Assembly: GCA_002898575.1 (NCBI GenBank)
Contig: BEHT01000038.1
Location: 1-33,150, forward strand
Length of the DNA stretch: 33,150 bases
Source of the DNA: a bacterium HR17
GTDB taxonomy: Bacteria > Armatimonadota > Fervidibacteria > Fervidibacterales > Fervidibacteraceae
Direction: 5' to 3'
The position numbers were made by a program, and so were the translations under genes. Positions 1 to 21,432 of the stretch are shown here, one piece after another (positions within the stretch are counted from its first letter, which is position 1; every line of letters starts with the position of its first letter). The notes below the pieces were generated by a model. That model saw only the letters and a list, made by a program, of their open reading frames with translations. It ran no database searches and was not told where the DNA came from.

Positions 1-2392
1 CCAACCGCGCCACCTGGATGCCGTAACTGCGGTCCGTCCCGCCTGGCACGATCCGATACAGGAACGTCACTTTGTCGCCTTCTTCCAACACAGCGGCACA
101 GTAGTTTTTGACACGGGGCAGCAAGTTTGCCAGTTCGTTGAGGTGATGGTAGTGGGTCGCAAACAGGCACTTGCACCCGATACGATGCAACTCTTCCGCG
201 ACCGCCCAAGCGATGGCGATGCCGTCGTAAGTAGAAGTGCCCCGTCCGATTTCGTCAATGAGCACCAAACTCCGTTCTGTCGCGTTGTGCAAGATGTTCG
301 CCGTCTCAGACATCTCCACCATGAAGGTGCTTTGCCCGCGCACAAGTTCGTCATGTGCCCCGACGCGGGTGAAGATGCGGTCTACGACCCCAATTTTCGC
401 CTCCTTTGCCGGCACGAAACTCCCCATTTGCGCCATCAAAACGATGAGGGCAACTTGACGGAGAAAAGTGCTTTTGCCCGCCGCGTTGGGACCTGTGATA
501 ATCAGCAGTTGGTTTTCGCGGTTATCTAAGCGGCAGTCGTTGGGAACAAAAGGTTTGTCCCGCTGCACTTGCTCAATGACGGGGTGGCGTCCCTCTTTGA
601 TGACGATTTCGTCACCGTCGTCCACGACGGGGCGTGTGTAGTGGTTTTTGGCGGCGACTTCCGCCAATGTCGCCAGCACATCCAACTCCCCCATCGCCCG
701 CGCCGCCTCCAACAGTTCATGGCTGCGTTGGGCAACTTCCCCCCTCAACTCCACGAACAACTGATACTCCAACTGCCCGATGCGTTCTTCCGCACCGAGC
801 ACCTTGCTCTCCAACTGCTTGAGTTCAGGCGTGATGAACCGCTCCACATCTGTCAGCGTTTGCTTACGGATGTAGTCTTTCGGGACAAGATGCAGGTTTG
901 CCTTCGTGACCTCAAGGTAGTAGCCGAAAACTTGGTTGTAGCCGACGCGCAAATTTTTGATGCCCGTTCGCTCCCGCTCTTTCGCTTCCAGCGCCGCAAT
1001 CAATTCCTTGCCGTGGCGAGCGATGTAACGCAGTTCGTCCAACTCCGGATGGTGGCCGTCGCGGAAGATTCCGCCTTCGGTCATACGGTGGGGTGGGTTG
1101 TCCACGAGGGCGCTCTCCAACCGCCGCCGCAAATCATCCGCCGTGTGCAAGCGGTCATGGATGTGCTGTAGCAAAGACGGAGCAGATTTTGCACCGACGA
1201 GGTCGCGCAGTTTGGGGATCACTTGCAGCGCCGAACGGATTTGCGCCACATCGCGCGGGTTTGCCGTGCCCGTCCCGACGCGCGCAATGAGGCGTTCCAA
1301 ATCGGGCACGCTCTTAAGCGTCTCACGAATTTCTCGCCGCCAAAGGGAGTCACGGTAGAGGGCTTCAACGGCGTCCAACCGCTCGTTGATGTGTTCAACG
1401 CTCAGCAGCGGTTGCAAAATCCAGCGGCGCAACAATCGCCCGCCCATCGGCGTTACCGCCTCATCCAAAACCCACAGCAAAGTGCCGTAGGCACCGCCGT
1501 CCCGCAGCGATTGCACCAACTCCAAATTGCGCCGCGTCGCGTTGTCCAGTAACATGAACTCGCCGACGCTGTAAGTGCTGAGGCTTTTGAGGTGTTCAAG
1601 GGCGGCAAGTTGCGTCCGCTGCAAGTAAGCGATGACGCACGCCGCGGCGCGCAGGGCAAGGGGCATTCCCGTCACACCGAAGCCGTCCAAGGTCGCGACT
1701 TGAAAGTGCAGGCACAGCAACCGCTCCGGCTCCGTGAAAGGGTCAAGGTCAAAGGGCGTGACGGTCGTCGTTTCGCAAACTTCTTTCAGGCGGGCGACAA
1801 AATTTTCGTCGTTTGCCAACTGCTCGGGCAGCAAGACTTCAGCGGGTTGCAGCCGCGCCAGTTCATGGCACAACTCCTTCGCCTTCAGCTCCGTCGCAGC
1901 AAATTCACCCGTTGAGACCTCAGCAACGGCTAACCCAAACCGCTGTTCCGTTTGTCCCGACCTTCGCCCTTCGTCCCGCGCCCCGCAAATGGCGACCAAA
2001 AAGTTGTAGCGTTTCGCCTCAAGGAACGCCTCTTCCACAAGGGTGCCGGGCGTCAGGACGCGGGTGACATCGCGGTGGACGAGGCGCTTTTTGGGGCTGG
2101 GCTCTTCCAGTTGGTCGCAGACGGCGACCTTGTAGCCCGCTTCCAGCAACTTGGCGATGTAGCGCTCAACGGCATGGTGCGGGACACCGCACATCGGGAC
2201 GCGGTTGCCCCGCCCGATTTCCCGCGAGGTCAGCACCAACTGCAACACCTGCGCCCCGATTTGGGCGTCCTCACCGAACATCTCGTAAAAGTCGCCCAAC
2301 CGAAAGAGCACCAAGACATCGGGGTAGCGCGCCTTAATCGCCTGATATTGCCGAAACATTGGCGTCAGCCTTTCACCGTGCCGATCCGCCAT
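1..2392 (-). CDS. mutS: DNA mismatch repair protein MutS (C-terminus beyond window)
   Basis: About 797 codons of MutS are visible; the 3' end lies beyond the left edge. The product recognises mismatched or looped-out bases and uses ATP to recruit the rest of the repair machinery. The N-terminal mismatch-recognition domain shows GDFYEMF, which carries the Phe-x-Glu mismatch-reading motif, followed by a typical MCGVPHH segment. Near the left edge the ATPase domain has a P-loop GPNAAGKST, the GAHDELVRGQSTFMVEM segment, Walker B LVLIDEIGRGTS and the ATHYHHL switch. The P-loop reads NAAGKS where many MutS have NMGGKS, an ordinary variant. I chose the ATG at 2392: an in-frame TGA lies just upstream, and AAGGTG is correctly spaced before it. 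It diverges from the oxidoreductase gene. Identification is certain; orthology to MutS1 rather than another long MutS rests on the FxE motif. Confidence 0.97.
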   Translation of the reverse strand, partial: MADRHGERLTPMFRQYQAIKARYPDVLVLFRLGDFYEMFGEDAQIGAQVLQLVLTSREIGRGNRVPMCGVPHHAVERYIAKLLEAGYKVAVCDQLEEPSPKKRLVHRDVTRVLTPGTLVEEAFLEAKRYNFLVAICGARDEGRRSGQTEQRFGLAVAEVSTGEFAATELKAKELCHELARLQPAEVLLPEQLANDENFVARLKEVCETTTVTPFDLDPFTEPERLLCLHFQVATLDGFGVTGMPLALRAAACVIAYLQRTQLAALEHLKSLSTYSVGEFMLLDNATRRNLELVQSLRDGGAYGTLLWVLDEAVTPMGGRLLRRWILQPLLSVEHINERLDAVEALYRDSLWRREIRETLKSVPDLERLIARVGTGTANPRDVAQIRSALQVIPKLRDLVGAKSAPSLLQHIHDRLHTADDLRRRLESALVDNPPHRMTEGGIFRDGHHPELDELRYIARHGKELIAALEAKERERTGIKNLRVGYNQVFGYYLEVTKANLHLVPKDYIRKQTLTDVERFITPELKQLESKVLGAEERIGQLEYQLFVELRGEVAQRSHELLEAARAMGELDVLATLAEVAAKNHYTRPVVDDGDEIVIKEGRHPVIEQVQRDKPFVPNDCRLDNRENQLLIITGPNAAGKSTFLRQVALIVLMAQMGSFVPAKEAKIGVVDRIFTRVGAHDELVRGQSTFMVEMSETANILHNATERSLVLIDEIGRGTSTYDGIAIAWAVAEELHRIGCKCLFATHYHHLNELANLLPRVKNYCAAVLEEGDKVTFLYRIVPGGTDRSYGIQVARL

Positions 2393-2646: not shown

Positions 2647-2675
2647 TCGGAGGGCGGCTCTCCTGAGCCGCTGAA
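2647..2675 (+). repeat. Solo REP-like half element
   Basis: This is the same sequence as the left half of each 70-bp unit in the array at 7041-7352: a TCGGAGG foot, a 7-bp stem GCGGCTC/GAGCCGC and a TCCT loop, followed by TGAA. The partner half (GTGCGTC stem) is absent here. Its reappearance 4.4 kb away shows that the half element is the mobile or dispersed unit and not just part of a local tandem duplication. Confidence 0.8.
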
Positions 2676-2884: not shown

Positions 2885-3838
2885 GTGGGATTGGGCATGG
2901 GACGCCACCGCGCCCGCACGGTCACCCAAACGCCCAACGCCCAACTCATCGGCGTCGCCGACATCAACCCTGAGCGGGCACAAAAAGTCGCCGACGAGTT
3001 GGGTTGTGAGTGGCAGACCGATTTTCGCGCTTTCCTTGACCGTCCCGATGTCCATGTCGTTTGGGTTATGACACCGTCAGGGTTGCACGCTGACATCGCT
3101 GTCCCGGCGTTGGAAGCGGGCAAGAATGTCATTGTCACTAAGCCGATGGAAGTGACTTTGGAACGCGCCGACGCGATGATTACAGCGGCGGAGCGCAACA
3201 ACCGCCTGTTGCTCGTGGACTTTGATATGCGTTACCTAAAAGGCGCATGGCAAATTCGCCAAGCCATCGTTGACGGGCTGTTTGGCAAACTCATCTTGCT
3301 GGAAGGGCGGCTCAAGTGGTTTCGGTCGCAGGACTACTACAGCCGCAGCGGCTGGCGGGGCACTTGGCGCTACGACGGCGGTGGCTCGTTGGCAAATCAG
3401 ACCATCCACCTGATTGACCAACTTGTTTGGCTGGGCGGTGAAGTGGAGCGAGTGGAAGCAGCGCGCATCGGCGTTTTCGCCCACGCCATTGAGACCGAAG
3501 ATCTGGGCGTGGCGATTTTCCGATACCGCAACGGTGCGTTGGGCACGGTGCTGGGCACGACAACTTTCCCTAAAGACGCCTACGCCGTCGTGGAAGTGCA
3601 CGGCGATAAAGGCGGGGCGATTTTGGATGTCAACGGGCAAGTGCGCTGGTTTTTCCGCGACGACAGTGTAGCGCCGCCTGAAGTTGCACCACCCTTTGCC
3701 AACTCCGCTGAGAACATGGTCGCTGCCATCCACAACGGTGCCCTGTTGGTGTGCGACGGGCGTGAAGGGCGCAAATCGCTGGCATTGCTTACCGCCATCT
3801 ACCGCGCCGCTCAAACGGGGCAACCAACTTCTCTGTAG
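2885..3838 (+). CDS. Gfo/Idh/MocA family NAD(P)-dependent oxidoreductase (start uncertain)
   Basis: The product belongs to the Gfo/Idh/MocA dehydrogenases, which oxidise or reduce sugars and cyclitols with NAD(P). Visible motifs are the dinucleotide loop GLGMGRHRA, the catalytic-lysine segment VTKPM (families usually read EKP), and GGGSLANQTIHLIDQL, which holds the conserved H-x-x-D of the catalytic C-terminal half. Length (317 aa from here) is slightly short. The only canonical in-frame start is this GTG at 2885, which would delete the first Rossmann strand. The frame stays open upstream to a TGA at 2849 and would encode IIAAAIGFVIV, exactly the missing strand. A GAGGTG at 2845-2850 sits 4 and 7 nt before ATC (2855) and ATA (2858). 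The real start is therefore probably a near-cognate codon, unless the base call is wrong. Substrate is not predictable. Confidence 0.85.
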   Translation: MGLGMGRHRARTVTQTPNAQLIGVADINPERAQKVADELGCEWQTDFRAFLDRPDVHVVWVMTPSGLHADIAVPALEAGKNVIVTKPMEVTLERADAMITAAERNNRLLLVDFDMRYLKGAWQIRQAIVDGLFGKLILLEGRLKWFRSQDYYSRSGWRGTWRYDGGGSLANQTIHLIDQLVWLGGEVERVEAARIGVFAHAIETEDLGVAIFRYRNGALGTVLGTTTFPKDAYAVVEVHGDKGGAILDVNGQVRWFFRDDSVAPPEVAPPFANSAENMVAAIHNGALLVCDGREGRKSLALLTAIYRAAQTGQPTSL

Positions 3839-4699: not shown

Positions 4700-5362
4700 A
4701 TGGCGACTTTCGTCTACCTTGTGCGACACGGCGAAACGGTGTGGAACGCAGAGGGGCGACTGTGCGGTAGCAGTGACATCCCGCTGAGCCCTATCGGACA
4801 ACAGCAAGCCCAAAGGTTAGCGCAGCGGTTGCGCTCCGTCCCGCTGGCTGCCATTTACAGCAGTCCGTTGCGGCGCACCCGTCAAACGGCTGAAACGATT
4901 GCGGCGCTGCACAATTTACCCGTGCACCCTGTGCCGGAACTGAGCGAAATTGACTACGGCGATTGGGAGGGAATGGCGGTTGACGAACTGGCGCGCCGCT
5001 TTCCTGAGGCGGAGCGCTGTCGCACTGATGACCCGTTGCGGTTCGTCGCGCCCAACGGCGAACCGTTTGCCCACTTTGTTGAGCGGGTCACGACAACCGT
5101 GCAGCGCATCGCTGCCTGCCATGCGAATGAGACCATAGCCGTCGTGGCGCACCAAGGGGTCAACCGCATCGTTTTGTGTTGGGTGCTGCAGGCGGAGTTC
5201 TCCCTTTGGCGCCGATTGCGCCAAGACCCTGCCTGCGTCAACCTTTTGCAAGTGCGGGACGACGGACAGTGGCGGGTGTGGCTCGCTAACGATACTTGCC
5301 ACCTGCAGGATGCGTCGTTGGAGTCAGAAAAACCCGTGCAAGCGTCTGAGGTGAACCGTTGA
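4700..5362 (+). CDS. Histidine phosphatase (phosphoglycerate mutase family)
   Basis: This 220-aa protein belongs to the cobalamin-phosphatase/phosphoglycerate-mutase branch of the histidine phosphatases. Catalytic features are LVRHGET (Arg9, phospho-acceptor His10), SSPLRRTRQTAE (phosphate-binding Arg near 58-59), EIDYGDWEG with the acid residue, and VVAHQGVNR with His151. Such proteins may be alpha-ribazole phosphatase, a phosphosugar phosphatase or a cofactor-independent mutase-like enzyme; the sequence alone does not decide. ATG 4700 follows GGTGA by 6 nt and gives the usual MATFVYLVRHGET start; ATG 4685 has no ribosome site. Its TGA overlaps the ATG of the foldase gene by one base, so the two are probably translationally coupled. 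Confidence 0.9.
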   Translation: MATFVYLVRHGETVWNAEGRLCGSSDIPLSPIGQQQAQRLAQRLRSVPLAAIYSSPLRRTRQTAETIAALHNLPVHPVPELSEIDYGDWEGMAVDELARRFPEAERCRTDDPLRFVAPNGEPFAHFVERVTTTVQRIAACHANETIAVVAHQGVNRIVLCWVLQAEFSLWRRLRQDPACVNLLQVRDDGQWRVWLANDTCHLQDASLESEKPVQASEVNR

Positions 5363-7005
5363 TGCCGTCCTTGCGCCGAACGCGCCACAAGTTGCAAAAG
5401 CAAGCCGTCCGCTGGACGATTTGGGGCGGTGTTTTCGTCATCTTTCTCGTGGGCACTTTCACGGGGTTCAGTTGGTGGACGGGGCGCTCGGAACTGTCCA
5501 GCCAACTACCGCGTGTTGTCGCCCGCGTCAACGGCGAGGAAATTTCTCGCGCGACTTACGAACAATTTTTGGCGCAGGCAGCACAATTCATGCATCCGAC
5601 AGTCGCCGATTGGGCAACGGTCAAAGAAATCGCTTTCGGACAGTTGCTGGAAACCGTCGTGTTAAAGCAAGAAGCCCAACGGCGCGGGTTGCGAGTTACA
5701 CAGAGGGACATAGACAAACACGTCAACGCGATGGTCGCGGCGGAGTTGGACAGCGCCCGCCAGCGTTACCAGCGGGAGAAATCTTTTCGCGATTACATCC
5801 GCAAAGAGTTCGGTTCGTTGGACAACTACGCCGCCGCACTGCGCCGTCAAGCCCAACAACAAGTTAACGAGTTGCAAGACGCCTTGTTGCAAGAAAAATT
5901 GCGGGAAAGCGTGGAGCAAAGTGTCAAAGTCACGGAGAAAGACTTACGCATGGCTTACACCCAATTTCGCATCCGCCATATTCTTGTCAGTTTCGCCCGT
6001 TTCTTTCCCAAAGGCAAAACGCCTACCCTTCAAGACCAACAAACTGCCCGCCGAAAAGCGCGCGAACGCGCCCAGCAACTCCGTCAACGCCTGCTGAAAG
6101 GAGAAGACTTTCAAGCGTTAGCGCGCAAGGAATCGGACGATACACCGACGGCGTCTAAAGGCGGCGACTTAGGAGTGATGACATTGGATATGGTGCGGGG
6201 GCGTTTGGGTGAGGCTATTGCCCAAGCCCTGCCTCGCCTGAAAGTCGGCGAGATTTCGGAGCCCTTAGAGGGTTGGATGGGCTACCACCTCCTGCAAGTG
6301 GAAAGTAAGCGGGTTGTGTTGCCCCCCGATTACGATAAAGTGCGCTACCGCTGCGAAAACACAAAATGTGCCTACCAGTGGTTAGGGGAGAAAGGGGAAA
6401 CGCAATGCCCCAAGTGCAAGGGCAAAGCCATCAAAGTCGTCGGGACGCGGCGGTCTGAACTGCTGCGGCAGTTGCGCATGCAACGCCAACAGGAAGCGTG
6501 GGACCGTTTGCGCACCGATTTGCGCCAAAGGGCGCAAGTGGACATCCAAGACCCCGAATTGCGCGGGTTGTGGGCAGCCCGCAACGGCGATGCAGAGGAA
6601 GCCCGCCGGGCGTTGGGCGAAGCCCTTAAAATCGCCCTGCGATCGCCGGACGCCCGCCGCCATTTTCTTTACCCCGAAGTCATTTTGCTGGAGTTGGCGC
6701 GGTTGGAGCAAGGACAAGGCAAACTTGCGGAGGCTGAGCGGCATTTGCAGGAAGCCCTCAAATACTCCGACGATAACAGCCTCCATCTGCAACTCGGCAC
6801 CGTCTTCATGCTGCGCAATAAAAAAGACGCCGCGCTGAAAGAGTTCATGAAAGTCGCCAACAGTTCGCCCACACCCGTTCAGCGGCAAGTGCTGGCAAAT
6901 TACTTGGAACAGTTAGGGCGCAAGGATTTGGCGGAGCAACAACGCCGCTTAGCGCAAAAAGAGCAAGCCGCCAGCGGGATGACGCTCCCTCTCAACCTCC
7001 AATAA
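5362..7005 (+). CDS. Membrane-anchored PpiC-type peptidyl-prolyl isomerase with zinc ribbon and C-terminal repeats
   Basis: A 547-aa SurA/PrsA-like foldase. Residues about 15-38 form one membrane segment after a basic N-terminus, so the bulk is extracytoplasmic. Residues 50-190 resemble the SurA N-terminal chaperone helices (ARVNGEEISRATYEQFL, coiled Gln/Arg-rich helices). The parvulin domain spans about 201-318, with RIRHILVSF, a KGGDLGVM loop and a GYHLLQVESK end. Immediately after it come four cysteines (331, 336, 349, 352; C-X4-C-X12-C-X2-C), a predicted zinc ribbon that is unusual in this family. Residues 390-530 are helical repeats resembling TPR (ARNGDAEEARRALGEAL and following). ATG 5362 lies 8 nt after GAGGTG and overlaps the upstream stop. 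It probably assists folding of secreted proteins, which fits a genome exporting many lyases. Confidence 0.88.
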   Translation: MPSLRRTRHKLQKQAVRWTIWGGVFVIFLVGTFTGFSWWTGRSELSSQLPRVVARVNGEEISRATYEQFLAQAAQFMHPTVADWATVKEIAFGQLLETVVLKQEAQRRGLRVTQRDIDKHVNAMVAAELDSARQRYQREKSFRDYIRKEFGSLDNYAAALRRQAQQQVNELQDALLQEKLRESVEQSVKVTEKDLRMAYTQFRIRHILVSFARFFPKGKTPTLQDQQTARRKARERAQQLRQRLLKGEDFQALARKESDDTPTASKGGDLGVMTLDMVRGRLGEAIAQALPRLKVGEISEPLEGWMGYHLLQVESKRVVLPPDYDKVRYRCENTKCAYQWLGEKGETQCPKCKGKAIKVVGTRRSELLRQLRMQRQQEAWDRLRTDLRQRAQVDIQDPELRGLWAARNGDAEEARRALGEALKIALRSPDARRHFLYPEVILLELARLEQGQGKLAEAERHLQEALKYSDDNSLHLQLGTVFMLRNKKDAALKEFMKVANSSPTPVQRQVLANYLEQLGRKDLAEQQRRLAQKEQAASGMTLPLNLQ

Positions 7006-7040
7006 CGCTGCCATATGCAGCGTTGAAGAATGGGGTTCAT

Positions 7041-7352
7041 TCGGAGGGCGGCTCTCCTGAGCCGCTGAAAAACGGTGCGTCAGGAGACGCACCCTCCGAA
7101 TAACGAACTCTCGGAGGGCGGCTCTCCTGAGCCGCTGAAAAACGGTGCGTCAGGAGACGCACCCTCCGAATAACGAACTCTCGGAGGGCGGCTCTCCTGA
7201 GCCGCTGAAAAACGGTGCGTCAGGAGACGCACCCTCCGAATAACGAACTCTCGGAGGGCGGCTCTCCTGAGCCGCTGAAAAACGGTGCGTCAGGAGACGC
7301 ACCCTCCGAATAACAAACTCTCGGAGGGCGGCTCTCCTGAGCCGCCGAAAAA
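7041..7352 (+). repeat. Tandem array of 70-bp paired REP-like hairpin units (four full, one partial)
   Basis: Units start at 7041, 7111, 7181, 7251 and 7321; the last is cut off after its first hairpin and has one substitution in its tail. Each unit has a TCGGAGG foot, hairpin A (7-bp stem GCGGCTC/GAGCCGC, loop TCCT), a short A-rich linker, hairpin B in inverted orientation, a complementary CCTCCGA foot and an 11-bp spacer. Read on the other strand, hairpin B is again TCGGAGG plus a 7-bp stem (GTGCGTC/GACGCAC) around TCCT. The two stems differ by three compensating base pairs, while foot and loop are invariant. Copies are almost identical, which indicates recent amplification. The array fills the 370-bp gap between the foldase and kinase genes; the kinase ribosome site lies just past the final half unit. 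Confidence 0.93.
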
Positions 7353-7376
7353 CTGCCCTGCGGAGGTCTGGCACGC

Positions 7377-8339
7377 ATGGAACCGCTGACCCGTGAACGG
7401 CTCTTGGAACTGGCAGCGCAGTGGCGCGGTCAACGGATATTGGTCGTGGGGGATTTAATGCTGGACGAATACATCCTCGGAACAGCTGAGCGCATCTCAC
7501 CAGAAGCTCCGGTGCCCGTGATCATGTGCGAGCGACGCACCTACGGTGCCGGCGGTGCTGCCAACACCGCGATGAACTTGCTGGCGTTAGGGGCGCAAGT
7601 GAGCGTGTGCGGGATCGTCGGTAGCGATTGGGCAGGTGAGAGACTGCGGACTTTATTGACCGAACAGGGAGCGGACACGACGGGGGTTTTGACCGACCCG
7701 TCGCGCCCGACGACCGTCAAAACGCGCATCGTCGCTCAAAGTCAACAGGTTGCCCGTGTGGATGTGGAAAGTCGCACACCTCTGAACGGTTCATTGGAGG
7801 CATCCTTGCGCGGCATCGCTAAAGAACTCGGGCGCGAGTGCGCGGCGATCGTTGTCTCGGATTACGCAAAGGGGGTTGTCACGGCAGGGTTGTGCGCTGG
7901 GCTGCGGGACCTTCGTGGGCAAACGCTGTTATGTGCCGGACCGAAACCCGCCAACATCGCGCACTTTCGCGGGTTTGACTTTTTGAGCCTGAACCGCAGC
8001 GAAGCCCTGGCGTCTGTGACCGCCGCCCGCACCGTTCCCGAAGCAGGGCGTGAGCTCTCCGCTCGCTTGGAGGTTCGCGGCTTGGTCATCACCCTCGGTG
8101 GCGACGGATGTGCGTTGTTCAGTGAAGGCGAGGAGATCGCACATTTGCCCGCCTTACGGGTGCAGGTTTACGATGTAGCGGGAGCAGGGGATACTTTTTT
8201 GGCGGCGCTGACGCTGGCGCTCTTGGCGGGCGCACCATTTGTGAGCGCCGCGCAAATCGCGACGGTCGCCTCCGCTGCCGTCGTGCGCAAAAGTGGCGTG
8301 GCTACCACAACGCCAGAGGAGATGGTGGTGTTGTTGTAA
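7377..8339 (+). CDS. PfkB-family sugar kinase resembling HldE/RfaE heptose-7-phosphate kinase domain
   Basis: A 320-aa ribokinase-fold (PfkB) kinase. The N-terminus GDLMLDEYILGTAERISPEAPVPV is the signature of D-glycero-beta-D-manno-heptose-7-phosphate kinase, the first half of HldE/RfaE, which makes the ADP-heptose precursor for lipopolysaccharide. The GAGGAANTAMNL glycine motif and the C-terminal anion-hole/catalytic-base motif DVAGAGDTF (Asp base; families usually read DVTGAGDT) are present. The middle is less typical: the family's VDPKG and TPN segments read LCAGPKP and SLNRSE here. No nucleotidyltransferase half is fused or adjacent. ATG 7377 follows GGAGG by 9 nt. Kinase assignment is firm; heptose as substrate is likely but not proven. 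Confidence 0.8.
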   Translation: MEPLTRERLLELAAQWRGQRILVVGDLMLDEYILGTAERISPEAPVPVIMCERRTYGAGGAANTAMNLLALGAQVSVCGIVGSDWAGERLRTLLTEQGADTTGVLTDPSRPTTVKTRIVAQSQQVARVDVESRTPLNGSLEASLRGIAKELGRECAAIVVSDYAKGVVTAGLCAGLRDLRGQTLLCAGPKPANIAHFRGFDFLSLNRSEALASVTAARTVPEAGRELSARLEVRGLVITLGGDGCALFSEGEEIAHLPALRVQVYDVAGAGDTFLAALTLALLAGAPFVSAAQIATVASAAVVRKSGVATTTPEEMVVLL

Positions 8340-11973: not shown

Positions 11974-12831
11974 TCAGTTGTTCCCGCACCATTGACCTGT
12001 CGGGGAGTTGCCTGTGCCTGTCGTGTTCATCGGGTTGCAACCGAGCGTCGCAGGGTCAGTTACCTTCCGCACGCCTGCGGGCATGGACGGCACCCATGCG
12101 TGGCAATCTTCCGGGAAGACTTTCTGCCACTTGGCATGCCCGTCGGCAAAAATGAGGTTCAGCCCTTCCATGTGGTGTGGTCCTAACCGTCCACCTGTGC
12201 CGCGACTGGGTTGAACGTTCCAACGAGAGTGGTAAGTGGCATGGACGGCGATGCGACAGGGAGATACCGCCATCTGCCCTGTCATGGAGAGGATGTTGGG
12301 CGGGTCGTTAATGGCACCTTCGCGAGGTGGCCAGTTGTCATTTTCAGCGAGCATAACCGTTCCTGCGGGTTCCTGCACACGAACGAGAGATTTCGGCGGC
12401 CAATTGTCCCAGCCCCCAAACACATCTGAGTTGGCAAGCCAGCCAGTGATGACACGCCCTAAAGGCGGTGGTTCCACAGGGATGTTTGAACAGCCAGCAG
12501 CGTTGTTTACCCAGAAACAGATACGGACAGTGTAAACACCAGAATAGGACGGACAACGCCACATCTCAAAATTGCGGGTATAAGGCTGCACTAAGGTAAG
12601 GTAGATGCCCCAGTGGGCGGATGGATACATCTCGTCGTAATCCTGCTGATATTGTGTGACCGCCAGGCTGACCTGCTTGGCGTTGGACAAGCAGGAGGTT
12701 TGTCGCGCTTTATCGCGAGCCTGGCTGAACACCGGGAACAGGATCGCCGCCAAGATCGCGATGATCGCGATCACCACCAGCAATTCAATGAGTGTGAAGC
12801 CGCTACGAATTCGTCCTTGTTGCGTCATCAT
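11974..12831 (-). CDS. Prepilin-like DUF1559 (H-X9-DG) protein 1
   Basis: A 285-aa type II/IV pseudopilin-like protein. A short leader ([11 protein letters not shown]) ends in Gly before the class III cleavage and methylation site GFTLIELL, followed by the hydrophobic helix [17 protein letters not shown]. Further segments are [25 protein letters not shown], the WRCPSY strand and the diagnostic H-x9-DG motif (H then MEGLNLIFA then DGHAKW). These proteins are processed by a prepilin peptidase, not seen in this window, and are expected on the cell surface or in a secretion pseudopilus. ATG 12831 lies 5 nt after AGGAGGGA; a second ATG directly follows. The gene begins 47 bp after prepilin 2 ends. 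The exact role of DUF1559 proteins is not established. Confidence 0.9.
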
Positions 12832-12878
12832 CAGTCCCTCCTTTTCCTGCCTCTTGTGGGGCTGAGTTTTTCTTTCCT

Positions 12879-13796
12879 TCATTGAGACTTACGCCTATCC
12901 CACATCGTCCAATTGACGACGCCGGAGCCCACACAAGGGCTTCCGGAAGGCACGGTGGATGGGTCAATGTCAAATGAACCGCTAAAGGTGGCTTCGTATC
13001 GCAACCACTTGGCGTGTCCATCGGCAAAAGCATAGTTGGAGCCTTTTTGGTGAGGTGGGTCGTAATTTTGTCCGGCAAGCGCGCTGAAAAATCGGGATTT
13101 CTTTGCGATTGCGTAGTAAGTTCCCGTTGCCGTATCCTGGATGCAACAGTAGTCGGCGTTGTTGCTCTGGCAACTGATGTTGGCGTGGACGAAGAAAGGT
13201 GTGTCTTGATTGTGTCCGTTTTCCCACCGCTCATAAGTGGCAATAACACTCGCAGGTTTGTCCACTTGGGCGAGGCTCACACCCCAATTGGGACCAGCAA
13301 TGCCGTTGCGATATTCGCCGGTGCTTGGGACATAAATGCCGAGGGCAGAAGTCGTTGGACCTGCTAAGATGGTGTAACTGCGCTTCCGCTTGGGGTCAGT
13401 GGGTGCCCATGTGTATTGCCCTACGAACCACCATCCTCGCTGTCCGCCTGGTCCAAAACAACCATCCCCTGTAGATGTGAAGTCTGAGGGGCACTTGAGT
13501 ATATCTTCGTTGCGCAAATAAGGTTGGATGACATAGTTCCATTGAGAGCCACAAATTACTCCTGAAGGAGCAACTTGGCGGGTAGGCACCCATCGTTCGT
13601 CATAATCTTGCACATACTGGTTGAACGCCAAGCCCAATTGCCGGTTGTTGCTCAAGCAAGCCGTCTGCCGCGCCTTGTCCCGCGCCGCTGAAAACACCGG
13701 GAACAGAATCGCCGCCAGGATCGCGATGATCGCGATCACTACCAGCAATTCAATGAGGGTGAAGCCGACCGATGTGAAATTGCGATGCCCTGTCAT
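12879..13796 (-). CDS. Prepilin-like DUF1559 (H-X9-DG) protein 2
   Basis: A 305-aa paralogue in the same operon. The leader [11 protein letters not shown] precedes [33 protein letters not shown], then [16 protein letters not shown] and the H-x9-DG motif with [16 protein letters not shown]. The central region, rich in Gly, Trp and Cys, differs completely from its paralogues, so only the pilin helix and the C-terminal motif are held constant. ATG 13796 is chosen because GGAGGGAGGG lies just before it; the frame is open for 39 further codons, but those read through an intergenic hairpin. Five cysteines in the soluble part (GVICGS, CPSD, GCFG, CQSN, YCCI region) allow disulphides. Confidence 0.9.
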
Positions 13797-13919
13797 CAGC
13801 CCTCCCTCCTTTGCTTTCGGGCTTTGGGTAAAGGGGCGAGGGTGCAACGAACGGTACCCCCGCCCCATTCCCCTCCCCGCTTGGGCGGAGAGGAGAGCGA
13901 CACCGCACCGCAAAGACGC
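13797..13919 (-). promoter_or_regulatory. Intergenic hairpin before prepilin 2
   Basis: CCTCCCCGC (13872-13880) pairs with GCGGAGAGG (13885-13893) around TTGG, with one mismatch. There is no T-tract on the transcribed strand, so it is more likely an mRNA-stability or processing element than a terminator. The flanking G/C-rich runs look like dispersed-repeat sequence. Confidence 0.45.
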
Positions 13920-14078
13920 TCATGAGCCTTCCTGTTGTTGGGTCTTGACGGCTTCTTGGCGGTAGAGTTCCACCTGGGCTTGCTCCGCGTGATGCCGCCA
14001 CGCCCATAACCCTGCGGCAATCCCGACAACGACGACGACAGCAACGATGAGCCAAAGCCAATGGATGGAGCGGCTCAT
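13920..14078 (-). CDS. Small single-TM protein, paralogue B
   Basis: A 52-aa protein with a short N-terminus (MSRSIHW), one strongly hydrophobic helix (LWLIVAVVVVVGIAAGLWAW), the WAWRHHAEQAQ motif and a Gln/Glu-rich tail ending KTQQQEGS. It is paralogous to the 57-aa protein at 11738-11911; the shared core is W-A-W-R-H followed by an amphipathic Gln-rich helix. ATG 14078 follows GGAGG by 8 nt. The gene starts 14 bp after prepilin 3 ends, indicating tight co-transcription. Orientation is probably N-in with the tail outside, by inference. No family recognised. Confidence 0.78.
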   Translation of the reverse strand: MSRSIHWLWLIVAVVVVVGIAAGLWAWRHHAEQAQVELYRQEAVKTQQQEGS

Positions 14079-14092
14079 GCCTTTCGCCTCCT

Positions 14093-15010
14093 TCACTGCG
14101 GCAGACCCAAGCACTCTCGGCGGCACCGAACGGCATTGTCACTGGTGCCCGTTAGGATACGCTGCATGTAGGCTTGGGCGACAAGGGTTTGCCCCTGCGG
14201 GTCGGAATCGTCTACCCATAAGCACTTGGGTTGCAGCGTCTGGGCTAAGCGTAGCCACTTGGCGTGCCCGTCCACAAAGACATAAGTAGAGCCTTGCAGA
14301 TGCACACCGCAGTCCATGTTCTCTATAACATTGCGGAGGTCGGGACAGGAACCGAAAACTTCTACGACAGCGATCAGGTTCGCAGGTGCGGTGAACTTGG
14401 CGATGGAAGCACCGACAGCCGTCCAACTGTTGTAAGGCGAAGTGCCACTGCCCCAGCGAATTTGGTTAGCCTGGACATAGTGATTGGCACCATAAGTCCA
14501 TCGCAGGTTCTCCCAACTTCCTTGAGGGGGTTGGCAGGCGGCAGGTTGGTTGTTAATAAAGGGCTGGTAGCCTCGGTTAGATTTAGAGGGGCAAAGGAGC
14601 ATCTGGTAGTTGCGCATGTAGGGCATCACTTGGTCGCTCCACCCCGCATAAGGCGCCCCACAGTCCAAGTTCCAGGGATTGTTAGGTGAAAACCCTCCGA
14701 CGCAGTCCAGCCGCCCTGGCGGAGGAGCACCGACGCAGGTAGCAGCGCCACGGTTACACACCTTCGCGGGAGGCGTGTGCTCGTCATAGTCCTGCGTATA
14801 CATTGCCCATGCCGTGCCCAGTTGACGCATGTTGGCGAGACACGAAGCCTGCCGTGCTTTCTCGCGAGCCTGGCTGAACACCGGGAACAGAATTGCTGCC
14901 AGGATCGCGATGATCGCGATCACCACCAGCAATTCAATGAGTGTGAAGCCGCTGCGCGTGGGGGCGACGCCCCCGATACCGGTTTGTGTCCGAACAGCGA
15001 CACCCATCAT
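14093..15010 (-). CDS. Prepilin-like DUF1559 (H-X9-DG) protein 3
   Basis: A 305-aa pseudopilin-like protein with the longest leader of the set (about 19 residues, [21 protein letters not shown]) before [13 protein letters not shown]. It continues with [10 protein letters not shown], a Cys-rich insert ([12 protein letters not shown]), the LLCPSKSN strand and the H-x9-DG motif as [16 protein letters not shown]. The start is ambiguous among three nearby ATGs (15016, 15010, 15007). I chose 15010 because it is 7 nt from GGGAGG; 15016 would be almost in contact with it. The frame is open further upstream through a strong hairpin, which is unlikely to be coding. It is followed 14 bp later by small TM protein B. 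Confidence 0.9.
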
Positions 15011-15042
15011 AAACATCCCTCCCTTCACGGGTTTTTTGTCAG

Positions 15043-15075
15043 CGGTGGGCGCAGCGGTCAACGCTGTGCCCACCG
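15043..15075 (-). promoter_or_regulatory. Strong intergenic hairpin before prepilin 3
   Basis: A 14-bp stem, with one G-T (or A-C, by strand) position, joins 15043-15056 to 15062-15075 around a 5-nt loop. On the transcribed minus strand it is followed by CTGAC and an A-run, not by T residues, so intrinsic termination is unlikely. Its place between two prepilin genes suggests transcript processing or stabilisation. Confidence 0.6.
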
Positions 15076-15163
15076 TTTCTCCCATGTTTGGGCGGCTGGC
15101 GCGCCTCCCCCAAATGCCCTCAATTTGCGATAGGATAGGTTCGCGTTTCCTCACACAGCGGTA

Positions 15164-15955
15164 TTACTCGTAGCCGCAACTGGCTGGATTGGGGTCAGGA
15201 CCGACGACGCCATCTACATCCCAATCTAAGCCTTGCATCGGCAGGTTGATCTGTAACTCCATCGGGTCAACAGGTTGGGGCTGGACACAGTTGTTATAGC
15301 GCACACCCGTTCCTTTCAACCATTTGGCATGTCCGTCAGCAAAAGTGTAGTTGGCACCATCCGTGTGGATGAACGCCCGCACTCGCCCTTCAGGGCGGTC
15401 AGTGTAACTGCCGAGCGGTGGGTTATCGGGACGAGCCAACCGACGCCCCAAGTGCGTCGCTGTCCCACCTGTGCCGCTGTTGGGAATGAAGACCAGCGCC
15501 TGGCGGGGATCAGGGTCGCCGTTGGCATCGGCAAAAGACGGTGATTGTGCCGGTAGCGGAATGGCAGCCAAAGGTAAACCGCCGCTCGCCCCAAAATGAA
15601 ATTCGTAGGTGTAAGCGATGATGTTCTGGTTACTTGGGCAACGGAACAGCTGGTCGTTTTTGATGTAGGGCTGCATGATGGCGATCCAGTTGAACGCCGG
15701 AGAACCTGCCCCACCGATTCGGTGCGGGACACACCTCTCGTCGTAATCCTGCGAATATTGGGCAGCCCCCAGCCCAATTTGCCGAAGGTTGGAAAGGCAG
15801 GACGCTTGCCGCGCCTTCTCTCGCGCCCGACTGAACACTGGGAACAAGATGGCAGCGAGGATCGCGATGATCGCGATCACCACCAGCAATTCAATGAGGG
15901 TGAAGCCGACGGACATGCCCTTTGCGGGGCGCAGCGACCAAACGCGTAGCGACAT
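15164..15955 (-). CDS. Prepilin-like DUF1559 (H-X9-DG) protein 4
   Basis: A 263-aa pseudopilin-like protein, first prepilin after LacI 1 on the minus strand. The leader [17 protein letters not shown] precedes [42 protein letters not shown]. It has [18 protein letters not shown] and H-x9-DG as [16 protein letters not shown], and ends in a short Asp/Pro-rich tail with a final Cys. ATG 15955 lies 9 nt after AAGGAGG; an in-frame TTG at 15964 would abut the ribosome site. Nearly all sequence outside the pilin helix and C-terminal motif differs from its neighbours. Confidence 0.9.
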
Positions 15956-15989
15956 AGCACACAACCTCCTTTTGGCGTGATTTGTTCGG

Positions 15990-18779: not shown

Positions 18780-19793
18780 ATGGCGACTTTAGCCGATGTG
18801 GCAAAGCGGGCAGGCGTGGCGTTGTCTACGGTCTCGGCGGTGTTGAACAACCGGCCTGACTGCTTTGTGTCTGCGGAGACGCGCCAACGCATTTTGAAAG
18901 CGGCAGCGGAACTGGGCTATCGTCCTCACTACCTTGCGCGGTCGTTGGCAAGGGGCAAGACTGACACGCTGGGCTTGGTTATTTACGAGGTCACCAACCC
19001 CTATTTTGCCCGCATCGCCGACGAGGTGGAACGAGCGGCACGGGAAGCGGGCTACCAATTGCTGCTATGCACCAACCGCGACGAACCTGAATGCAGCGAC
19101 CGCGCGAACTTGGAACTGCTGAGCCAGCGGCGGGTGGACGGGATTTTACTGTGGGCGAGCCGCTATCCCCCAGAAGGCTACACTGTCCCCTTGCCGGACG
19201 AAGCCAAGGGGCGGGTCGTCGTGCTGGGCTACCACACAGCAGATGGGACGGACTATGTGTCCGTGAACCGTGCAGAAGGCACCTATCGCGCCACGCAGCA
19301 TTTGATTGCCTTGGGGCATCGGCAGTTGGGCTACCTTGCCCCTTATGGGGATTTGCATCCTGACCATCCCAAGTTGGCGGGGGTGCTGCAGGCGGTGCAG
19401 GAAGCGGGGTTGCCCGAACCGCTGCTTATCCCGACGGACGGGCATTTTCGGGGAGACGGCTACCGTGCTGTGCAGCGGGCACGCGAGTGGCAACCCCGTC
19501 CGACGGCGTTGGTCTGCTACAATGACCTGCTCGCCATTGGCGCTCACAAGGGCTTGCGCGAATTGGGTTGGCGCATACCCGAAGACATTGCCTTTGTCGG
19601 CTTTGACGGCATCGAAGAAGGCGCGTTTTTAGAAGTCCCATTGACGACCGTTGCTGTGCCCATCGCCGAGATGAGCCAAACGGCAGTGCAGTTTCTCATC
19701 AACCGCCTTGAAGGGCGGGCGGAGCGACCACAGCAATTGACCCTTGCCCCACGGTTGGTCGTGCGCCGGTCTTGTGGGGCGAAGGAGGCGTAA
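18780..19793 (+). CDS. LacI-family transcriptional regulator 2
   Basis: A 337-aa LacI-type regulator. The helix-turn-helix is [22 protein letters not shown] (residues 2-23), then the hinge [24 protein letters not shown]. The sensor domain shows [66 protein letters not shown] and [15 protein letters not shown]. It is only distantly similar to LacI 1, so the two probably see different effectors or operators. It heads a plus-strand operon with two prepilins and a PL11 lyase; prepilin 5 begins 31 bp after its stop. ATG 18780 follows GGCGGGTGG. The palindrome at 18733-18750 is its probable binding site. Confidence 0.93.
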
Positions 19794-19824
19794 AACCCTT
19801 TCTACTCAAAGGAGGCGAGTCGTC

Positions 19825-20604
19825 ATGGTCGTGCAGCGTGGCTTCACCCTCATTGAGTTGCTGGTGGTGATCGCGATCATCGCGATCCTCGCGGCGATTT
19901 TGTTCCCTGTGTTCAGTCAGGCGCGGGAAAAGGCGCGGCAGTCAGCGTGCTTAGCCAACACGCGCCAGTTGGCTTTGGGCGTCTCCATGTATGCCCAAGA
20001 TTGGGACGAAACTTTGCCGACATTAGGCACCATTAACGAATGCCGTGGGCGTTGGATGTTCCAGATCAATCCGTATGTGCGCAACCGACAGATTTTCACT
20101 TGTCCCAACGCCCCACGCAACGAGTGGGACGGAACGATGTACAGCGACACGACGGGTTACGGTTGGGCAGAGCACATTTGGTCTAAGTGGGACGGCAGCT
20201 GGGTTGGCAGTTGTCAGCGGACGACGGGCTACAGTTTGGCAGAAATTCGTAAGCCCGCAGAAACGATAGCCATCGGCGACACGGGGTTCAACGCGACGGG
20301 ATGGACGCCGACGCAAGGGCGCCCGGGATGGGCGATGTATCGGCGCCCGCCTTGGGTGGGCGATAGCGACCCACGCCCTGGCTACTACCCGCAGTTCCGC
20401 CACCTTGCCAGCCAATTTCGTCCCTTCCGCGACACGCAGTTCAATGACACTCTCCAGATGCCCGTGGACGGGTTGTGCAACTTCGTGTTGTTAGACGGGC
20501 ACGCCAAAGCCTACAAGGCGACGGTAGCCTTCCAACAAGCCAACGCTGAAGACGGCACCCCGTTGACAGGTGGTGATCAGTATGTGATGTGGAACCTCTA
20601 CTGA
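19825..20604 (+). CDS. Prepilin-like DUF1559-type protein 5 (His of H-X9-DG missing)
   Basis: A 259-aa pseudopilin-like protein with the shortest leader (MVVQRG) before [42 protein letters not shown]. It has AQDWDETLP where its paralogues read QDYDE, FTCPNAP, a Trp/Arg/Pro-rich centre ([13 protein letters not shown]) and the C-terminal DGHAK. The conserved His nine residues before DG is Val here ([12 protein letters not shown]), and the usual Trp after HAK is Ala, so this is the divergent member of the set. ATG 19825 lies 9 nt after AAAGGAGG. It is the second gene of the LacI 2 operon. Confidence 0.88.
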
Positions 20605-20635
20605 AGCGCAGGCAGTGACGGCGTAAAGTAAAAAA

Positions 20636-20665
20636 GCGGGTGGGGCACCTGCAACCCCGACCCGC
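20636..20665 (+). promoter_or_regulatory. Intergenic hairpin before prepilin 6
   Basis: GCGGGTGGGG (20636-20645) pairs with CCCC-g-ACCCGC (20655-20665), a 10-bp stem with one bulged G and a 9-nt loop, just before the AGGAGG of prepilin 6. It is preceded by six A residues and not followed by T residues. It occupies the same kind of position as the hairpins in the minus-strand prepilin operon. Confidence 0.5.
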
Positions 20666-20685
20666 GTGAGAGGAGGGAACCAAGG

Positions 20686-21432
20686 ATGTCGGCTTACCGA
20701 CGCCCTTCATTTTGTCGCTCTTTGTCGCGGCACGCGTTTACGCTCATTGAGTTGCTGGTGGTGATCGCGATCATCGCGATCCTCGCGGCGATCTTGCTGC
20801 CGGTGTTCAGCCAAGTGCGCGAAAAGGCGCGAGCGGCTTCATGTTTGAGCAACTCCCGCCAAATCGCCCTCGCATTGCAGCAATACACACAAGACTATGA
20901 TGAGCGCTTTCCCGTTTTCTACCCGCGTGCGCCGATATGTGTCCATTGGCTCGGCGATGTGGGGCAAGCGAATGTCGGTTCGTGCGCCTACCTCTACGGG
21001 TGCCTCTACACCTACCTCAAAAACACCCAAGTTTACGATTGCCCGTCCACGCGCATGTGGCATATGGGCAACTATGCGCTGGTCGGTGTCGGCATCACGA
21101 TGCCCTCCGGCGTTCCGTCCCGTCCGGTCGCCATGCCCGACTTGGATGAGCCATCCGTCACCATTTTGGCGGCTGAGCCCACCAACCAAAACAACTGCAA
21201 CGGTTCGTGCGATGGACGGCGGGTAGGGTTTGCCCAGCGAGGCAACCCTGGACGCTTGTCCGTTTTGTGGAACCGTTGGGGCTTTCTGCATCAAGGCGGG
21301 CAAAACCTCGTTTTTTGCGACGGGCATGCCAAATGGTGGAAGCAGGAAAAAGCCCTCGGCGACCTGACGACCAACTTTCCCAACTACGCTTTACTCGTTT
21401 CGCCCAAGCGAGGCGTCCCGCAGGACCCATGA
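20686..21432 (+). CDS. Prepilin-like DUF1559 (H-X9-DG) protein 6
   Basis: A 248-aa pseudopilin-like protein. The leader [17 protein letters not shown] ends in Ala before FTLIELL, where the other five have Gly; bacterial prepilin peptidases tolerate Ala. The helix reads [16 protein letters not shown] where most paralogues have [24 protein letters not shown], a Cys-rich centre and H-x9-DG as [16 protein letters not shown] follow. ATG 20686 is preceded by AGAGGAGGGAACCAAGG. It lies between prepilin 5 (81 bp upstream) and the PL11 lyase (60 bp downstream). Confidence 0.9.

Follow-up and report, generated by a model that had tools for sequence, protein, structure and literature searches.

Published REPs have been described with GT(A/G)G or CGTC heads (PMC2817692, PMC3733652, PMC6006769). 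Among them, the GTAG-headed REP/BIME/REPIN elements with TnpA_REP, such as the Y and Z REPs of E. coli, share with the family reported here a head, a short hairpin that is GC-rich and covaries, hundreds of dispersed copies, inverted heterodimers, and tandem arrays; our family, however, carries GGAG instead of GTAG or GTGG, has no cognate REP-type Y1 transposase (RAYT) in its genome, and has many copies inside an element with inverted ends. The GTAG-24 and Enterobacterial GTAG-3 families are likewise built of pairs of only two arm types, which differ in stem or loop (PMC3733652), whereas the family described here has a GG head, other sequences, and another host. CGTC-tagged REPs, described without a transposase, offer a precedent for a REP-like family that lacks an associated transposase gene (PMC3733652), but our family has another head, and other genomes contain related RAYTs that carry the matching one.

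RESULTS

The window, that is, the whole stretch of 33,150 nucleotides of the bacterium HR17 genome that was analyzed, holds a single tandem array detectable with TRF, at positions 7041 to 7353, with a period of 70, 4.5 copies, and 99% matches. Read directly, the 70-bp unit is TCGGAGG-GCGGCTC-TCCT-GAGCCGC-TGAAAAACG-GTGCGTC-AGGA-GACGCAC-CCTCCGA-ATAACGAACTC, as the first-pass annotation had claimed in describing units that each hold two inverted TCGGAGG-7bp-TCCT hairpins. Table 1 lists the array and its neighborhood. The two stems, A and B, differ at positions 2, 4, and 5, and all three differences are compensated on the other arm, again as proposed. The 59-nt A+B pair is predicted to fold as a three-way junction with its outer feet paired (z = -5.3 and -5.8, one value per strand), in agreement with the suggestion that the feet can pair and the unit fold as a junction. 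The two loops had also been described as mutually complementary. They are indeed complementary, but this is uninformative, because inverting a copy of a hairpin necessarily makes its loop complementary to that of the original; kissing loops were therefore rejected as evidence. The window contains 11 occurrences of the foot TCGGAGG, whereas 3.4 would be expected, and 0 of 100 shuffles reached 11. A Y1 search of the window found no transposase, consistent with the first reading. Elsewhere in the window, at 11974-15964 and 19744-21432, lie six paralogous genes in two groups, with a type IV pilin-like N terminus.

Table 1. Hairpin repeats and neighboring genes in the window
Feature	Position	Strand	Remarks
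mutS	1-2392	-	
Solitary A arm	2647-2671	+	mutS/oxidoreductase intergenic gap
Gfo/Idh/MocA oxidoreductase gene	2885-3838	+	
SurA/PpiC-type peptidyl-prolyl isomerase with TPRs	5359-7005	+	Upstream of array; Pfam Rotamase, SurA_N
Left end of longer element, TGCAGCGTTGAAGAATGGGGTTCAT type	7017-7040	+	Matches left-end consensus GTGTTGAATAATGGGGTTTGG
REP pair 1	7041-7099	+	A arm 7041-7065, linker 7066-7074, inverted B arm 7075-7099
Spacer between units, ATAACGAACTC	7100-7110	+	
REP pair 2	7111-7169	+	A + inverted B
REP pair 3	7181-7239	+	A + inverted B
REP pair 4	7251-7309	+	A + inverted B
Last, partial unit	7321-7353	+	A arm only
PfkB-family sugar kinase	7377-8339	+	Downstream of array; Pfam PfkB

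A search of the 3.15-Mb genome for TCGGAGG-N7-TCCTGA returned 354 exact, dispersed matches versus 1 for a reversed-pattern control. In a 421-kb sample composed of stretches picked because the element was present, we collected 147 arms, 137 of them with the exact foot TCGGAGG, while a mononucleotide shuffle of the sample gave 0. The arms fall into two types, A with GCGGYTC stems and B with GCGCRTC stems. Across the 45 distinct arm sequences of this sample, 95.9% of stem cells were paired, and double-sided stem changes numbered 45 versus 14.6 in shuffles (reached in 0 of 500 shuffles); when the partner was slid, they fell to near zero. Variation is concentrated at stem positions 4 and 5 (C-G, G-C, A-T, and T-A), and the foot, the stem top (TC/GA), and the loop are maintained, which is the pattern that would be expected if a protein reads the foot and the loop. 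Ninety-six of the 147 arms lie outside open reading frames of at least 120 aa in a sample that is 13% intergenic, by a crude gene rule under which several "ORFs" are the arrays themselves. The same pattern, searched in 60 relatives, was absent from the two congeners (61-63% complete) and gave two unrelated matches elsewhere.

These data bear directly on whether the repeat is confined to this locus. The first-pass annotation had named an array accompanied only by the copy at 2647, with no stem variants and no Y1 gene, as the outcome that would speak against a REP family; instead, we found 354 arms, 45 variants, and two RAYTs. The dispersal rules out local duplication as the whole explanation, because there are 354 exact arms genome-wide, 45 distinct sequences, and strong stem covariation. 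For the array itself, with its tandem units 99% identical, local duplication is the best account. An ordinary duplication, or a terminator or other RNA structure with no mobile origin, is very improbable as the source of the family. CGTTTTT comes after the B hairpin when the minus strand is read, as it might in a terminator, but the sense strand has no T run after the hairpin, Rfam gives no match for the family, and neither form of this explanation fits the dispersed, covarying arms. Thus, the hairpin family of the 70-bp unit is confirmed to be of the REP/BIME/REPIN kind, with TCGGAGG in place of the canonical head GT(A/G)G or CGTC.

Two further sightings were recorded. At L037 (5363-5387), two copies of GAACTTTGGCTGGAGACTGAAC, in direct repeat, bracket a solitary A arm. 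At L100 (5264-5406), an A+B pair and a right end of the GGAG family are found on a contig assigned to a Flavobacteriales MAG; rather than a third host group, this contig probably represents contamination of the bin by a relative of the organism studied here.

When the orientation of neighboring arms was tabulated, all feet-outward pairs proved heterotypic: 48/48 were A+B in the 421-kb sample, across 28/28 clusters having a pair, and 36/36 in 553 kb of later stretches picked regardless of the element. In both samples together, 84 of 84 feet-outward pairs thus join one A arm and one B arm. Since REP families made only of heterodimers are already known (PMC3733652), this exclusive A+B pairing is a familiar feature.

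A profile search of the genome found only two RAYTs, C41 and C45, both EH-type. The C41 RAYT (174 aa) scores 122 bits against NCBIfam REP_Tyr_transpos, above the cut-off. The C45 RAYT (208 aa; L119 1402-2028, minus strand) is divergent, scoring 60 bits, below the cut-off of 80, and was missed by Pfam Y1_Tnp at an E value of 0.001; it contains an in-frame, GTAG-headed inverted insert, GTAGGGGC...CCCCTAC, between its HUH and Y motifs. It adjoins a helicase-like gene cluster. The C41 RAYT is surrounded by a second REP family, GTAGCGTCG-headed (GTAG), at L031 1000-2140, which likewise has two arm types and inverted pairs. No GGAG arms flank either RAYT, and the nearest on the C41 contig is approximately 11 kb off. 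The expectation that a Y1/RAYT gene would be flanked by the same element therefore held in part: there are two RAYTs in the genome, but one lies within a GTAG family, the other has a GTAG insert, and neither is GGAG-flanked. Similarly, the broader reading of the repeat as a REP/BIME element with a TnpA-REP enzyme is borne out by dispersal, covariation, inverted pairs, and the RAYTs in the genome, but not by the surroundings of these RAYTs or by the published heads.

One of the resident enzymes might nonetheless move the GGAG family in trans. They are the sole Y1 REP transposases found in the genome, and the Sm and Mb enzymes accept some changes in the GTAG head (PMC8266576), a tolerance that favors such trans action. 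Against it, C41 sits amid its own GTAG family, C45 carries the GTAG-headed insert, both are His-type, and GG heads flank 0/31 His-type RAYTs (see below); we regard trans action by C41 or C45 as improbable. Because both local RAYTs carry His, the GGAG family looks orphan in the HR17 genome. No GG-type RAYT was found in the assembly. The ends of contigs C1, C2, C6, and C9 fall inside GGAG arms or immediately beyond them. The assembly is therefore probably interrupted by these repeats, which could conceal a RAYT.

Since the assembly has no GG-type RAYT, the mobilizing enzyme was inferred from other genomes. An exact-pattern scan over 84,980 species genomes identified an arm in Geminisphaera colitermitum TAV2, GGAGG-GCGGGTC-TCCT-GACCCGC, of 25 nt and one compensated pair off arm A, with which it shares the GGAGG foot, the GCG and TC/GA at the bottom and top of the stem, and the TCCT loop. 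Fourteen copies occur in 220 kb of TAV2 stretches, mostly picked around known copies. TAV2, a member of Verrucomicrobiota, is from another phylum (phylum-level placements are the kinship labels of the genome collection), and, unlike in HR17, a RAYT lies between its hairpins: at L113, three GGAGG arms (GGAGG-GCGGGTC-TCCY) flank one RAYT, on both sides. GGAG-headed hairpins flank RAYTs at L113 of TAV2 and also at L127, L152, L154, L157, and L175. Within the phylum of HR17, hairpins such as GGGAGC-GCGGGTG[TCCT] and GGGAGC-GCCGGTG[TCCT] flank DR-type RAYTs, and it is common there for RAYTs to have GGGAGC- or GGAGC-headed arms with loops of TCC, TCT, or TCCT at their sides (L151, L152, L154, L157, and L175).

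RAYTs beside GG heads carry Arg (or Thr) where E. coli TnpA_REP has His101, a column that belongs to the WQxx..[DE][H/R]xxR motif and aligns with WQPRFWEHAIR of the E. coli protein (4er8). The His101 residue, sometimes Arg, is among those involved in GTAG contact, and no link to the head was drawn (PMC6006769). Residue 101 agreed with the automatic head call at 41/44 His/Arg loci (Fisher P = 1.3e-9), under a head rule first spotted by eye in the data later scored and then coded; column 101 ranked first among all alignment columns in an unguided scan. At further loci, with the rule set in advance (threshold 75%), 16/20 were concordant (P = 0.005). Over the 67 RAYT loci combined, His occurred with a GT head in 31/31 and GG heads occurred without His in 29/29; seven Arg-type loci had GT-type head calls, among them L203 (GGAGCG), a calling artefact. 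The link amounts to about six changes on the tree, few of them on supported branches, and these are too few for it to reach significance when relatedness is taken into account. Residue 101 as a tracker of the head is thus a good lead, not an established rule.

Many of the GGAG pairs lie inside a longer element, missed by the first-pass annotation, of approximately 130 bp and with imperfect inverted ends, TGCTkTGTTGAAT. Read the same way, GCTGTGTTGAATAATGGGGTTTGG precedes many A arms and GCTTTGTTGAATTTTCCTTTCGGCAGTGCC many B arms; in the sample, an A arm adjoined the left end in 19/19 cases, and a B arm adjoined the right end in 13/14. Three copies are bordered by 9-bp target duplications matching at 8-9/9 bp (AGACCGCAA/AGACCGCAA, GTGTAAGGA/GTGCAAGGA, and GATGGGCAC/GATGGGCGC), with a permutation P of 0.0005 in the first sample and 0.001 with new stretches added, in a test covering nine both-ended copies in which duplications were absent or decayed outside these three and two new-stretch copies gave no signal. 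One 73-bp copy has the ends and a duplication with an A arm only. RAYTs are not known to generate 9-bp target duplications or to use a DDE route. The inverted ends and the 9-bp duplications in some copies therefore indicate that some of the dispersal was MITE-like, and they suggest that an inverted-end element carrying REP pairs was a second route of spread for the orphan REP. In its size, its inverted ends, and the duplications of some copies, the element resembles MITEs of DDE transposons with 9-bp target duplication; it differs in containing a conserved REP pair and in that 31% of the genome (0.98 Mb) yielded no parent transposon or IS with TGCTkTGTTGAAT ends. The left-end consensus was not found in viral contigs.

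These same observations could be taken further, to a nonautonomous DDE transposon of approximately 130 bp in which the GGAG hairpins are nothing but internal palindromes and RAYTs never played a part. The regular placement of the ends at the arms, the duplications, and the 73-bp copy with its lone A arm all agree with this account. However, many GGAG clusters have no TGCTkTGTTGAAT ends, the arm is nearly identical to the RAYT-flanking hairpins of TAV2, GGAG/TCC-loop hairpins flank RAYTs within the same phylum, and the parent is missing from the portion searched. We therefore consider a purely DDE-type origin unlikely.

DISCUSSION

Altogether, our data make it fairly probable that the array at 7041-7353 is a local tandem expansion within a genome-wide, GG-headed REP family whose cognate RAYT is lost or unassembled and which is partly MITE-borne. 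A REP-type HUH/Y1 transposase (TnpA_REP, RAYT) would act on the GGAG arm as single-stranded DNA, and this enzyme would be one of the RAYTs that lack His where E. coli has His101 and that may read heads starting with GG. It could have been lost from the HR17 genome or be present but unassembled, the resident RAYTs being His-type and GTAG-associated. The A+B pair was also carried in the approximately 130-bp element, as shown for three copies and presumed for more, so that part of its spread would have followed a DDE-type (MITE-like) route. Arrays such as the one described here would have grown later, by duplication of the inner 70-bp unit.

A wider interpretation is possible, and we offer it tentatively: a GG-headed REP branch may exist in whose RAYTs the head-contacting His101 has been replaced, mostly by Arg, so that one position tracks base 2 of the head. 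The window family might then be an orphan of this branch, surviving or spreading in a DDE-type carrier after loss of its RAYT. A GG-headed family with RAYT partners elsewhere, together with a head-tracking residue, would provide a simple rule for matching orphan REPs to enzymes, and the residue itself may offer a way to test how RAYTs read the DNA head.
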